Part shown: piece by piece, positions 3,664 through 31,107 of the stretch | How the letters are laid out: each line of letters begins with the position of its first letter | Position numbering within the stretch: the first letter of the stretch is position 1 | Assembly: GCF_003258705.1 (NCBI RefSeq) | Contig: NZ_CP029480.1 | Coordinates: 2,542,001-2,606,000 of the forward strand | Reading direction: 5' to 3' | Length of the DNA stretch: 64,000 nt | DNA from: Arcticibacterium luteifluviistationis | GTDB taxonomy: Bacteria > Bacteroidota > Bacteroidia > Cytophagales > Spirosomataceae | The notes under the pieces: generated by a model | Seen by the model: the letters and a program-made list of their open reading frames with translations, nothing else | What the model was told of the DNA's origin: nothing | Databases searched by the model: none | Program-made: the position numbers and the translations under genes

Positions 3664-3700
3664 ATAAAAAATCGGCCTGGAAATGATATCCAAGCCGATT
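3664..3700 (-). terminator. Rho-independent terminator after the OmpA-family gene
   Basis: An 11-bp stem (3670-3680 with 3690-3700, one G-T wobble, 9-base loop) is followed in the minus direction by a T-rich run. It lies 36 bases past the stop of the PorE-like gene and should end that transcript before the next minus-strand operon. Confidence 0.8.
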
Positions 3701-3735
3701 CTAAACCTTAACCCTAAACTATGAAAAAATATATC

Positions 3736-6033
3736 TTAATCTTTTTTTACTGTTGGCTCATTTACGTTCAAAATCTTGAACTCTGTTCGCCTATTTAATT
3801 GATGTTTTCCCTCGCTGCAATCCACTCCATCACTACATCCATTTACTAACATGGCCTCACCATAACCGCTTGCTAAAAGTCTACCTTCTGATATTCCTCT
3901 TTTAGCTAAATAAGCTACCACAGCTTTTGCTCTGTTGTCAGATAAAGCCTGATTAAAATCAGTACCTGACCTGCTATCTGTATGAGACCTAATTTCAATT
4001 GCCATGTTTGGATACTTCTTTAAAATTGGTAGAAGAGTATTATCCAATTCCTTTCTGGCGTCTTTCCGAATCTCTGATTTACCGTAGTTATAGTAAATGT
4101 TTTCGATTCTAAATATATCACCTTCAGCAATCATGCCAAGATTCTGTTCGTAGGTAGTATTTTCCTTTCTTTTTGCCTTTACTTTACCTATTTGCTCCGT
4201 ATTTGTAGCATATTTTTCCTTAACAGCAGAAACTACGTATTTACCCTTCTTTATAGGCTGAAACTCATATCTACCATCTTTTCCTGTAATAACTGACTCT
4301 GTAGACTCGTCTCTAGTGTTAGTCAAAACCACCGTAGCACCAGCAATTGGCTCATTTGTCAATTCTGACCTAATTACTCCTTTTACTAGCGGTAATTTGG
4401 ATGCTATAAGGTTAATTTTAAGCTCTGCATTCCCTTCTTCAGTTATGTACATATTCTCATACCCTATAGAATTAGATTCGTAACCTTCCATGAAGGCATT
4501 AAAATTATAATCTAAGCCTGTACCCATGCAGATATTTATTTCTCCACTGCCATCGGTCTTATGTAATTCTTGATTTATACCATTTTTAATTAGCCTCACT
4601 TCTGCTCCAGGTAGCAACTCATTTGTATTTGCATCATATACCATAAGTTTAAGCTCACGGCACTTTCTGCCAAAGGCATAAATATCATCATCGGAGTAAC
4701 CTGTTTTTCTGTTAGAAGCAAAAAAACCAGAGTTTCTAGCACCGTCTGTAATCAAACTAAAATCGTCTTTTTCTGAATTTATTGGAGAACCTAAATTTTC
4801 AGGAAGTGAAACAGCTCTATCATTCTCTAATTCTACATAAAAAACATCCAAACCACCTAAACCTGCATGTCCGTCAGAAGCAAAGTAGATATTATCAAAC
4901 TCATCAATAAATGGAAACATTTCATTTCCTTCAGAGTTAATATCTCTTCCCATGTTTTTAGGATTACCCCAGTTCCCTCCATTATACTCTACCACATAAA
5001 TATCTGTCCCTCCATAACCACCCGGCATGTCAGAAACAAAATACAATTTCGTATTTCCCATGTTTAAAGATGGATGCCCGCAGGAATACTCATCAGAATC
5101 AAACGGAAGTTCATCTATATGATCCCATTTACTTCCGTCAAATTTGGCAGAATATAGCTTTAGCTTATTGATACCATCTTCACTCTTTTCTGTCTTATTT
5201 CCGATGTAATTATTTCTTGTAAAAATGACCTGTTTTTGGTCACTAAAGAAAGTTACCGGCCCTTCATGATATTTTGAATTCAGTTTTTTACTAAATCCCT
5301 CCAAACCTTCACTTAAGGCTGCAATAGACCCACCTTTACCACTTTTAGATAACGATGCCACCGTTTTACCTTTATAGTTTATAGATAATTTAGTGGTGTC
5401 AGGATATTCAAACAAATCCAAAAAGGGTGTTTGATTATTCATAAAAACACGCTTAATAAACTTATCTTCTTCCCTAGCCGAAACAAAAACTAAGCCCTTC
5501 CCAAAGTATACTGGACTAAAGTCTGCCTGACTTGAATTAATAGCGTCTAGGTATTTCACCTGATATAAGGATGAATCTCTTGCAAAAGTTGACCTATCCA
5601 TATAGGCTACCGTAAAATTCTTAGCTCTTAAGTCACTGCTTTGACGCTCTCCGTAAAGCGAATAATATTTCTGCGACTCTCTATATTTTGAATTACTAGC
5701 AAGAACCTGTGCGAAATTCAGGTACTCTTTGCTATCCAAAATACTTTCATGATTTTTAAAAAGAATTCTGTAGACCCTTTCAGCATTAGTATGGTCTTGA
5801 AGCTTCTTATAACAAAAAGCTAGTTTTGATAAACCTTCAGGAAGGTCTTCATCATCTGGTTTTGCACTTTCTACAAAACCCTCATAATTCTTAATGGCTT
5901 CCACATAGCTTAATCTCTCAAAATTACGGTTACCCGCTTTCAAGCTAGCCTGTGAAAATGACTGAAAAACTATTAGAGTAAAAAGGGTTAATAGTCCAGC
6001 ACATTTCTTCAACATGGACGTTCTTATATTCAT
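3736..6033 (-). CDS. OmpA-family outer-membrane protein with TPR, PD40 propeller and carboxypeptidase-regulatory domains (PorE-like)
   Basis: 765 residues. A signal peptide occupies roughly 1-27. Domains in order: TPR-like helical repeats (~30-150), a beta-propeller of PD40/WD40-like repeats (~165-470; FVSDMPGGYGGTDIYVVE, FASDGHAGLGGLDVFYVE, FASNRKTGYSDDDIYAFG), carboxypeptidase-regulatory-like beta-sandwiches (~475-640; PLVKGVIRSELTNEPIAGA), and an OmpA C-terminal peptidoglycan-binding domain (~645-755; IEIRSHTDSRSGTDFNQALS). This is the domain order described for PorE, a periplasmic component of the type IX secretion system that binds peptidoglycan. Bacteroidota genomes hold many paralogues of this kind and no porP/sprF gene sits beside it, so membership of the T9SS is plausible, not shown. 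A strong terminator follows. Confidence 0.85.
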   Translation of the reverse strand: MNIRTSMLKKCAGLLTLFTLIVFQSFSQASLKAGNRNFERLSYVEAIKNYEGFVESAKPDDEDLPEGLSKLAFCYKKLQDHTNAERVYRILFKNHESILDSKEYLNFAQVLASNSKYRESQKYYSLYGERQSSDLRAKNFTVAYMDRSTFARDSSLYQVKYLDAINSSQADFSPVYFGKGLVFVSAREEDKFIKRVFMNNQTPFLDLFEYPDTTKLSINYKGKTVASLSKSGKGGSIAALSEGLEGFSKKLNSKYHEGPVTFFSDQKQVIFTRNNYIGNKTEKSEDGINKLKLYSAKFDGSKWDHIDELPFDSDEYSCGHPSLNMGNTKLYFVSDMPGGYGGTDIYVVEYNGGNWGNPKNMGRDINSEGNEMFPFIDEFDNIYFASDGHAGLGGLDVFYVELENDRAVSLPENLGSPINSEKDDFSLITDGARNSGFFASNRKTGYSDDDIYAFGRKCRELKLMVYDANTNELLPGAEVRLIKNGINQELHKTDGSGEINICMGTGLDYNFNAFMEGYESNSIGYENMYITEEGNAELKINLIASKLPLVKGVIRSELTNEPIAGATVVLTNTRDESTESVITGKDGRYEFQPIKKGKYVVSAVKEKYATNTEQIGKVKAKRKENTTYEQNLGMIAEGDIFRIENIYYNYGKSEIRKDARKELDNTLLPILKKYPNMAIEIRSHTDSRSGTDFNQALSDNRAKAVVAYLAKRGISEGRLLASGYGEAMLVNGCSDGVDCSEGKHQLNRRTEFKILNVNEPTVKKD

Positions 6034-29122: not shown

Positions 29123-29155
29123 AAGTACTTATATGTATCCATACAATCGCAATCA

Positions 29156-29332
29156 GCTCTTTGAGGTCTTTTTGACCTCGATTAGTGTTCCTCTGCTTTT
29201 AGACCGATTGCTGAAAACTTTATCCCTTTTTTAGAATCTATTTTCAAACCTGAACTTATAAGTAGAGTTAAGACATGTAGAGGTCTGAAGACCCATAGCT
29301 GAATTCCACGAGATCAAAAAGACCTTGCGGAG
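29156..29332. repeat. Palindromic element, copy 1 (177 bp)
   Basis: Starts GCTCT and ends GCGGAG. Each end has two small hairpins: GGTCTTTTTGACC on the left with GATCAAAAAGACC on the right, and TTTTAGACCG on the left with GGTCTGAAGACC on the right. The ends also pair with each other as a long imperfect inverted repeat. The central ~70 bp are clearly related to copy 2. It lies just past the DUF6807 stop. Confidence 0.85.
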
Positions 29333-29536
29333 ATGGGGATAAAAAAGGATTTCCCAGCAGTTCAAAACCGCTTTTCGAGGTGGTTTTGGCTTTCATAAAA
29401 AAGCAAATTGCTTAAACTTACCATAAAAATACCATTCACTCCTCCAGAATTGCTCATGTTAAGAACGTTCCAAAATTAAGTTTATCTTATGGATATACTG
29501 GCTCATTACTTCTGTATCAAACTAGAGAAAACTTTT

Positions 29537-29544
29537 TATCTTTG
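29537..29544 (+). promoter_or_regulatory. Bacteroidota -7 box for the 69-aa gene
   Basis: TATCTTTG, an exact TAnnTTTG, 23 bases before ATG 29567. It supports this short gene being expressed. Confidence 0.5.
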
Positions 29545-29566
29545 TTCCTAAAACAAAACAAAATGC

Positions 29567-29776
29567 ATGGAGAACTATTTTCTAAAAACTGTTAAGGATG
29601 GGTATTGTATTTTTACTACTTCTATACCTGGACAATCCTTTTCATTTAAGAAAGGTGCTTTGAAATCGGGCTTAAGTTTTGCTCATAACTCAAGGGAAAG
29701 TATTGAAGATTTGGAAAAAATGGTATTTATACCTTTTGTAGAATGGGTGTCGGAAAAATACCCCGAATTAATTTAA
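29567..29776 (+). CDS. Small orphan protein, 69 residues
   Basis: Begins MENYFLKTVKDGYCIFTTSI and ends VEWVSEKYPELI. No signal peptide, membrane segment or known family was recognised. A consensus promoter box and normal amino-acid composition suggest a real gene. The N-terminal half looks like beta-strands, the C-terminal half a helix (SIEDLEKMVFIPFVEWV). It sits between copies 1 and 2 of the palindromic element. Confidence 0.5.
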   Translation: MENYFLKTVKDGYCIFTTSIPGQSFSFKKGALKSGLSFAHNSRESIEDLEKMVFIPFVEWVSEKYPELI

Positions 29777-29870
29777 TAGGACATAAAATCAATCTTTCAA
29801 ACGGCTCAATCTCGAGTAGTTTTTTTGAATTTAAACACTAAGGAATGACTGTGACTTAATACTTGACATT

Positions 29871-29985
29871 GTTGAGAACCATCTTCTATTTACAACTTTG
29901 AAAGCAATTCTCAACTAATGGGGTTACATCATTAATAGACATCATCTTCAATTTAGAAATTGAAAGCCCACATTTTATTCTCAAC
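29871..29985. repeat. Two imperfect 45-bp units; possible CRISPR remnant
   Basis: Unit A (29871-29915) has perfect 8-bp terminal inverted repeats, GTTGAGAA and TTCTCAAC. Unit B (about 29940-29985) shares ATCTTC-ATTTA, TTGAAAGC and the same TTCTCAAC end but has lost its left end and has an insertion. The two are separated by about 25 bases. Length, inverted-repeat ends and the TTGAAAGC core are like type II-C CRISPR repeats of Bacteroidota as I recall them. No cas gene lies in the window, so at most this is a vestige. Confidence 0.35.
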
Positions 29986-30016
29986 AAAGCATTATTTAAT
30001 TTAGCAAACAGTATAA

Positions 30017-30197
30017 GCTCCGTTCTTTGGGGTCTTTTTGACCTCAAAGTAGTGTTCCTCGGACTTATACCGATTGTGAAAATTTAATCCTTTATAGATT
30101 CTATTTCCAAATCTGAACTTAATAGGTAGATCTAAGGCATGTACCGGTCTGAAGACCGACAACTGAGTTCCTCGAGGTCAAAAAAGCCTTGCGGAGC
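30017..30197. repeat. Palindromic element, copy 2 (181 bp)
   Basis: Best conserved outer ends: GCTCCG at the left and GCGGAGC at the right are inverted repeats. Inner hairpins GGTCTTTTTGACC and CGGTCTGAAGACCG are both self-complementary. The spacer resembles that of copy 1 over most of its length. It ends 14 bases before the ATG of the 160-aa gene, so it may carry or disrupt that gene's leader. Confidence 0.88.
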
Positions 30198-30211
30198 GGA
30201 CTTAAACAATA

Positions 30212-30694
30212 ATGAAGATGAATAAACTAAAATGGTCAGATCCAGTTCACATAGTTACCTCTTTTGCCGGTGCCAAAAATACAACAGCAAAGTCTGAACT
30301 AGGAATCTTTAGTATAGAGATACCGCGTGATATCTTCAAGGATAGCCTATTGCGTCTAGATGGGCGTATTGTTTGTTATGTATCAGGAGAAACCATTGCG
30401 AAAAGTACGGCACAAGAAATGGTAGACCACATAGGAAAATACCACTGGACAATTAGCGATAACCCGAAGGTAGAAAATCAATATCTTCAAACAGAATTTG
30501 GAGAGATGGAATTGAGACCAGAAGTAAAACCAGACATCTTTCCTAAAACAATAAAATATAGTATCTATTTAAAAGGGAAACCTATATTAAGATATGCAGA
30601 TGACGTAGAAATAGTTAAATTTAAGGCAGAAATACATTTAGAGAAAATTAAGAGAGCAGCAAACTATTTAGAGCTCCTTAAAGGAAATAAATAA
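30212..30694 (+). CDS. Orphan protein of 160 residues
   Basis: MKMNKLKWSDPVHIVTSFAG at the start, a second Met at residue 3. No signal peptide, membrane segment or known family was recognised. The sequence has mixed alpha/beta character (IFSIEIPRDIFKDSLLRLDG, KTIKYSIYLKGKPILRYADD) and a Lys-rich C-terminal helix (KFKAEIHLEKIKRAANYLEL). It lies between copies 2 and 3 of the palindromic element, and no TAnnTTTG box was seen before it outside copy 2. Probably a real gene, with no assignable function. Confidence 0.6.
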   Translation: MKMNKLKWSDPVHIVTSFAGAKNTTAKSELGIFSIEIPRDIFKDSLLRLDGRIVCYVSGETIAKSTAQEMVDHIGKYHWTISDNPKVENQYLQTEFGEMELRPEVKPDIFPKTIKYSIYLKGKPILRYADDVEIVKFKAEIHLEKIKRAANYLELLKGNK

Positions 30695-30904
30695 ACACTA
30701 AATTCCACTTTCAAAGGCAATATAACCATCTGGAAAACCTTAGAGAAGCCATCTTTACCATGATAACAAAAGCCAAGTGAGAACCAAATTAAAAAAAAGA
30801 AGAAAAGATGCGAAACTTTCGAAAAGTATATGAGAGAGGCTAGGTCAAATCTTTATTGAGAGTTTGCTCTGAGTTGTTATAAAAATAATTAATAAGCCTA
30901 CACA

Positions 30905-31081
30905 GCTCTTAGAGTTTTTTTTTTGACCTCGAAGTAGTGTTTGTCCGTCTTCAGACCGATTGTAATAAATCTTGTCCCAATGAAGAATCTCTTGTTTATT
31001 TTAAGCTTAGCATATGTGAGGACTTGTACCGGTTGAAGACCGATAAATGAATTCCACGAGGTCAAAAAGACCTCGCGGAGC
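30905..31081. repeat. Palindromic element, copy 3 (177 bp)
   Basis: Starts GCTCT, ends GCGGAGC. Inner hairpins CGTCTTCAGACCG at the left and CGGTTGAAGACCG at the right; ACGAGGTCAAAAAGACCTCG near the right end is itself a near-perfect palindrome. The centre has diverged most from the other copies. It lies 26 bases past the stop of the minus-strand cytochrome/FG-GAP gene. The 210 bases to its left (30695-30904) hold nothing recognisable. Confidence 0.85.
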
Positions 31082-31107
31082 CATGAAAGAACATTACCCA
31101 GCACATT

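Follow-up and report, generated by a model that had tools for sequence, protein, structure and literature searches.

The window, that is, the whole 64,000-nucleotide stretch of Arcticibacterium luteifluviistationis DNA analyzed here, contains three elements of ~180 nt at 29154-29335, 30020-30199 and 30903-31083, all in one common orientation. In a blastn comparison inside the window, the elements match nothing but one another, with 81% identity between elements 1 and 2 (E 3e-40) and 73% identity between element 3 and either of the others (E 2e-18 with element 1, E 6e-18 with element 2). The three ~180-bp copies in 1.9 kb reported in the initial annotation are thus real. That annotation had copy 2 start at 30017; the homology begins at ~30020 instead, because the GCTCC at 30017-30021 does not form the end of the alignment. 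Each element is built as an inverted pair of ~55-60-nt units flanking a 60-63-nt center, and the features of the locus are as follows (R1 is a covariance model of the unit):

29154..29212, minus strand: element 1, left REP unit, large hairpin outward (R1 51.6 bits)
29213..29274, no strand: element 1, center, homologous to the element 2 center (global alignment, 0/2000 shuffles)
29275..29335, plus strand: element 1, right REP unit, hairpins partly decayed (R1 63.3 bits; DNA fold not above shuffles)
29567..29776, plus strand: 69-aa orphan ORF lying between elements 1 and 2, outside the repeat (no Pfam/NCBIfam match)
30020..30078, minus strand: element 2, left REP unit (R1 52.6 bits)
30079..30138, no strand: element 2, center, homologous to the element 1 center (global alignment)
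30139..30199, plus strand: element 2, right REP unit (R1 63.2 bits)
30212..30694, plus strand: orphan ORF of 160 aa, start 15 nt past element 2, outside the repeat (no Pfam match; NCBIfam none above cut-off)
30903..30964, minus strand: element 3, left REP unit, large hairpin broken by a T/A run (R1 55.7 bits)
30965..31023, no strand: element 3, center, marginal homology to the other centers (p 0.01 and 0.07)
31024..31083, plus strand: element 3, right REP unit, best preserved (R1 70.7 bits; twin DNA hairpin fold, z -4.2)

In each element the 60-nt left and right arms are inverted repeats with 39-41 identical columns (shuffles as good, 0/1000), and RNA folding of each element beats that of its shuffles (z -3.2 to -4.4). 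The inverted ends with two sub-hairpins apiece that were originally described are borne out by this analysis: every arm of the three elements carries a small and a large hairpin, with the large hairpin facing outward. Two half-units, the right one of element 1 and the left one of element 3, are decayed, and their DNA fold is no better than that of shuffles. The centers had been called related in all three copies, and this holds for elements 1 and 2; the similarity of the element 3 center to the other two is marginal only.

Element 1 begins 34 nt past the stop of a DUF6807 gene and element 3 ends 27 nt from the stop of a convergent FG-GAP gene, placing two of the three copies directly after gene stops, as first noted; element 2 sits shortly ahead of a gene start, not behind a stop. 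A search for homologs of the 160-aa orphan ORF in 149 other genomes of its family found none, and an Rfam scan of the window gave no match. The absence of a transposase or RAYT gene from the window held up in two ways: no transposase-like gene is among the ORFs listed for 24-36 kb, and a genome-wide PF01797 search gave no match inside the window. The row is evenly spaced (864 and 884 nt), and it represents a real cluster, because three pairs inside 1.93 kb have a probability of 0.00045 in a simulation of ~20 random insertions. We rejected tandem duplication of a larger segment as its origin, since the repeats span the elements alone and not their flanks; in this check one of the three pairwise comparisons was informative, and the other two merely matched overlapping query stretches. 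The copies differ by 19-27%, which suggests that the row is old.

Each unit comprises a small hairpin of the CGGTC-TGAA-GACCG type and a large hairpin (CCACGAGGTC-AAAAA-GACCTCGCGG) with a foot ending in GAGC. Across 19 aligned units of this genome, 25 double-sided changes preserve pairing compared to 8.6 in shuffles (0/500), a count that is inflated by kinship among the unit copies. Slid structures do worse in this covariation test than the two proposed helices. Reading down the unit list, 5'-NNGCT(C) opens most units at the foot of the large hairpin, and we consider the conserved GCTC/GAGC at this position the leading candidate guide or cleavage motif. Counted at any position, the motif GT[AG]G is present on one strand in 22 of 53 units, compared to a shuffle mean of 18, and on the other in 9 of 53 (mean 16); it was not found consistently at the hairpin foot on either strand of these 53 units. 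Units at C1:2101659 (L259:1660-1740), C1:1290634 (L217:3135-3235) and C1:1099926-1100026 carry an extra palindromic insert of 20-40 nt in the large-hairpin loop, for example TCTGCCGACAGGCAGGCC, a second small repeat nested in the REP unit.

Using R1, whose first version was built by hand from this genome, together with blastn, we located 27 units (E <= 0.003) in the 5.38-Mb genome, distributed over 14 places; six of the units belong to the window array. At the places inspected, the units fall in gaps between larger ORFs, and units elsewhere in the genome adjoin ordinary long genes. Full pairs at the array's spacing occur only in the window and beside one RAYT gene (C1:2102400-2102636). The object dispersed through the genome is the half-unit of ~55-60 nt, and the full 180-bp pair is not; with this qualification, the initial proposal of a dispersed, probably non-autonomous BIME/REP-type element is supported. 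The check suggested with that proposal, a search for dispersed copies and a RAYT elsewhere, came out positive, with a modest number of units and three RAYT genes flanked by them.

Two other repeats were seen near units. A different palindromic repeat, CTCAGAGTCTCCGTCAGGGACTCTGAGC plus ~75 nt downstream, lies at C1:1289.8-1291.5 kb in two long copies and one shorter one (L217:2307-2411, 3688-3792 and 3898-3952), interleaved with REP units and small orphan ORFs. At C1:2841176 and 2842035 (L060, L062), ~859 bp apart, the same three small ORFs (60, 73 and 76 aa) recur; by eye, a possible RelE-type toxin-antitoxin pair seems to have been duplicated in tandem here, and each copy contains a weak REP-like unit.

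The PF01797 matches in the genome include three genes distinct from the IS200 copies. All three are intact ORFs of 199-204 aa that score 100-105 bits to NF047646 REP_Tyr_transpos (cut-off 80), and each is flanked by units of the array's family. At the first locus the gene lies between units at C1:850640(-) and 851342(+), at the second the gene (C1:2101783-2102379) lies between a unit at C1:2101659(-) and units at 2102400(-) and 2102577(+), and at the third a unit at C1:1109707 stands beside the gene at 1108998-1109597. The motifs are NHLH/NHIH, FWQ or FWR, and YIHMNP. In an alignment of 39 relatives, the HUH histidines (NHxH) and the tyrosine of YIHMNP are invariant, and the relatives grade into YIHNNP and YIHQNP forms. 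A PDB sequence search with the RAYT found nothing; a later fold search with an AlphaFold2 model of one RAYT (mean pLDDT 87.6) returned as its best match 4er8 (E 1.1e-8), the E. coli RAYT bound to a REP hairpin, followed by IS200/IS605 transposases. DNA beside a RAYT gene showed no significant similarity to the element centers, and we rejected a deletion remnant of such DNA as their source. Elsewhere, at C1:4876290-4878479 (L031, L032), an ORF for a group II intron-like reverse transcriptase appears by eye to separate the two halves of a split IS200-type Y1 transposase gene.

A genome scan with one RAYT identified 58 loci in Flavobacterium, Maribacter, Arenibacter, Chryseobacterium, Hymenobacter, Rufibacter and others. 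Units found with R1 adjoin RAYT genes at ~25 loci of other genomes; weak matches among these lean on the model, because it was built by hand from this genome. Around RAYT genes of other species, 14 of 15 loci have their nearest upstream unit reversed, and 16 of 19 have their nearest downstream unit in forward orientation, the same inverted geometry as in this genome. As a control, 117 kb of non-RAYT loci from related genomes contained no units. A wider model, R2, found units in 24 of 222 genomes of the family. Among 59 related genomes, a RAYT relative is present in four of the five that bear units, yet also in many without them, so we rejected simple co-presence: the two are not tightly linked over this set. 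One genome, G019, has units and no RAYT match at E 1e-10.

In another genus, G024:C18 carries a row of 155-157-nt pairs that are 97-100% identical to one another. It consists of four copies and a fifth cut by the contig end, with three complete pairs plus partial copies; start spacings are ~690, 850 and 680 nt, and different small orphan ORFs lie in between. A second short repeat, ACATAAGCCGAACTTATGGAACATTTCGCTGAATAGGA, follows a pair in this row and recurs 507 nt on (L213:2280-2317 and 2787-2824). Unit clusters also occur in G080, G021 and G114.

Overall, we are confident in reading the elements as REPINs (BIMEs), in which a two-hairpin REP of Bacteroidota type, lacking a GT[AG]G foot, is arranged in inverted pairs; the cognate RAYTs, apparently of subclass 2.6, have their genes at other loci of this genome. 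We observed directly the structure of the elements, the scattered copies between genes, the RAYT genes with adjoining units in the same inverted arrangement, and the persistence of this association in other Bacteroidota. A short palindromic unit, dispersed extragenic copies, inverted doublets and a cognate RAYT flanked by units are the hallmarks of REPs and REPINs, and all are found here; the GT[AG]G at the 5' hairpin foot of canonical REPs is missing. The RAYTs have a predicted HUH/Y1 fold closest to TnpA_REP, going by the NF047646 score above cut-off and the best match to 4er8. We conclude that this is a known kind of repeat (REP/REPIN/BIME) in a well-documented new example, and not a new element type. 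The 27 units are far fewer than the hundreds typical of REPs.

According to PMC6006769 (2018), subclass 2.6 is found mainly in Bacteroidetes, with motifs NH[LIV]H, WQ and YIH[QN]NP and a length of ~179 aa, and its genes lie next to "atypical" secondary structures that lack GT[AG]G and recur elsewhere in the genome. The RAYTs and repeats described here appear to fit subclass 2.6 (equivalent to group 5), judged by motifs, missing GT[AG]G foot and phylum, with the subclass itself assigned by motifs only. The likeness extends to a RAYT of ~180-200 aa with NHxH, W and YIHxNP, to GT[AG]G-free flanking structures and to copies elsewhere, although YIHMNP is not exactly the YIH[QN]NP of that subclass. 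Where that account speaks only of "atypical" and "weaker" structures, we find a defined 55-60-nt twin hairpin, a conserved GCTC foot and 180-bp pairs; some of the twin-hairpin detail may already be on record in the paper's supplementary REP table.

The REPINs of Pseudomonas fluorescens SBW25 (PMC3116915) likewise form inverted intergenic doublets, with clusters beside RAYT genes and singlets as remnants, but are short, of GTAG type and present in hundreds per genome, whereas here there are two hairpins per unit, longer centers and ~27 units. With the E. coli TnpA_REP/REP/BIME system (4er8) the elements share a predicted HUH/Y1 fold, a hairpin substrate and inverted pairs; the structural-alignment identity is 18%, and the units here have neither the GTAG foot nor a bulge-type hairpin. 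TIRtrons with "double palindromic" TIRs (PMC3733652) also place tyrosine transposase genes between long, partly self-complementary inverted repeats, and their repeats, like the units here, also occur as single, dimeric or grouped copies. We liken the two by description and not by sequence, and most listed TIRYTs (20 of 26, according to PMC6006769) belong to subclass 2.1.

RAYTs of E. coli and Stenotrophomonas cut single-stranded REP hairpins in vitro (PMC8266576), and in the REPIN model doublets are the replicating unit and singlets are remnants (PMC3116915). By analogy, we infer that the pairs are mobilized by a RAYT, and the elements were probably moved by one encoded elsewhere in the genome and flanked by the same repeats. 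A pair would fold when the DNA is single-stranded, for instance at a replication fork, and the RAYT, to judge from its HUH fold and from other RAYTs, would bind the hairpins. Recognition would take place at the large hairpins and cleavage near the large-hairpin foot, with GCTC/GAGC as a candidate guide; the pair could then leave, and circularize or insert elsewhere. Units standing alone would be what is left of former pairs, and the local row of three would result from repeated local insertion or copying that is now old. In this genome there is no sign of recent movement, because the copies are divergent.

We weighed the REPIN reading against three others. Local regulatory hairpins, chiefly bidirectional terminators or mRNA 3'-end stabilizers of the neighboring genes and retained for that role, would account for the 34- and 27-nt distances of elements 1 and 3 from gene stops and for the terminator-like stem-loops with T runs called within all three elements. 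We consider this explanation unlikely: element 2 lies just before a gene start, several hairpins in the array are decayed, and in different genera RAYT genes are bordered by units in a constant arrangement, which is unexpected of terminators. Elements 1 and 3 may still serve their neighbors as terminators, in a secondary rather than exclusive role. A classical MITE, derived from a DDE-transposase insertion sequence and bounded by terminal inverted repeats, would share the ~180-bp size, the inverted ends, the AT-rich center and the lack of coding capacity, and yet is extremely improbable: both ends form self-complementary twin hairpins, ends are also found singly, no target-site duplication was visible by eye around the three copies, and the gene that these ends flank encodes an HUH/Y1 RAYT and not a DDE enzyme.

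The same orientation, the even spacing and the orphan ORFs between copies, along with the similar row in G024:C18 with its different small orphan ORFs, could also be read as a gene-cassette array, integron or RAYT-driven equivalent, in which the elements are recombination sites and the orphan ORFs cassettes. Against this, a simple motif and pairing test for an attC-like site (RYYYAAC ... GTTRRRY, paired L boxes) found none in the array, L213 or L217, units elsewhere in the genome lie next to ordinary long genes, and there is no evidence of moving spacers; we consider such an array very unlikely. A search through protein families of the spacer ORFs for support of the cassette idea returned orphans only, with other units beside ordinary genes, and was set aside. 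We give an equally small chance to REPIN-delimited gene cassettes, in which a RAYT would move or exchange short gene-bearing segments bounded by folded single-strand sites in the window and G024:C18 rows (pairs every 680-880 nt). If true, these would work much like an integron while relying on an HUH enzyme.

Most of what is known about REPs and RAYTs comes from Proteobacteria whose REPs are of the GTAG type, and the Bacteroidota branch, subclass 2.6, has previously been on record only with "atypical" repeats. The present case adds a clearly delimited unit, a covariance model usable in more than one genus, GCTC/GAGC as a candidate guide motif and matched RAYT/REP pairs, and recognition and cleavage in subclass 2.6 therefore become directly testable.

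The start-to-start spacing of clustered units in the same orientation is repeatedly ~680-880 nt, in the window (29332-30017 and 30199-30902) and at unrelated loci (L213, L241, L242 and L245). A similar distance (~700 nt) separates the units on either side of a RAYT gene.
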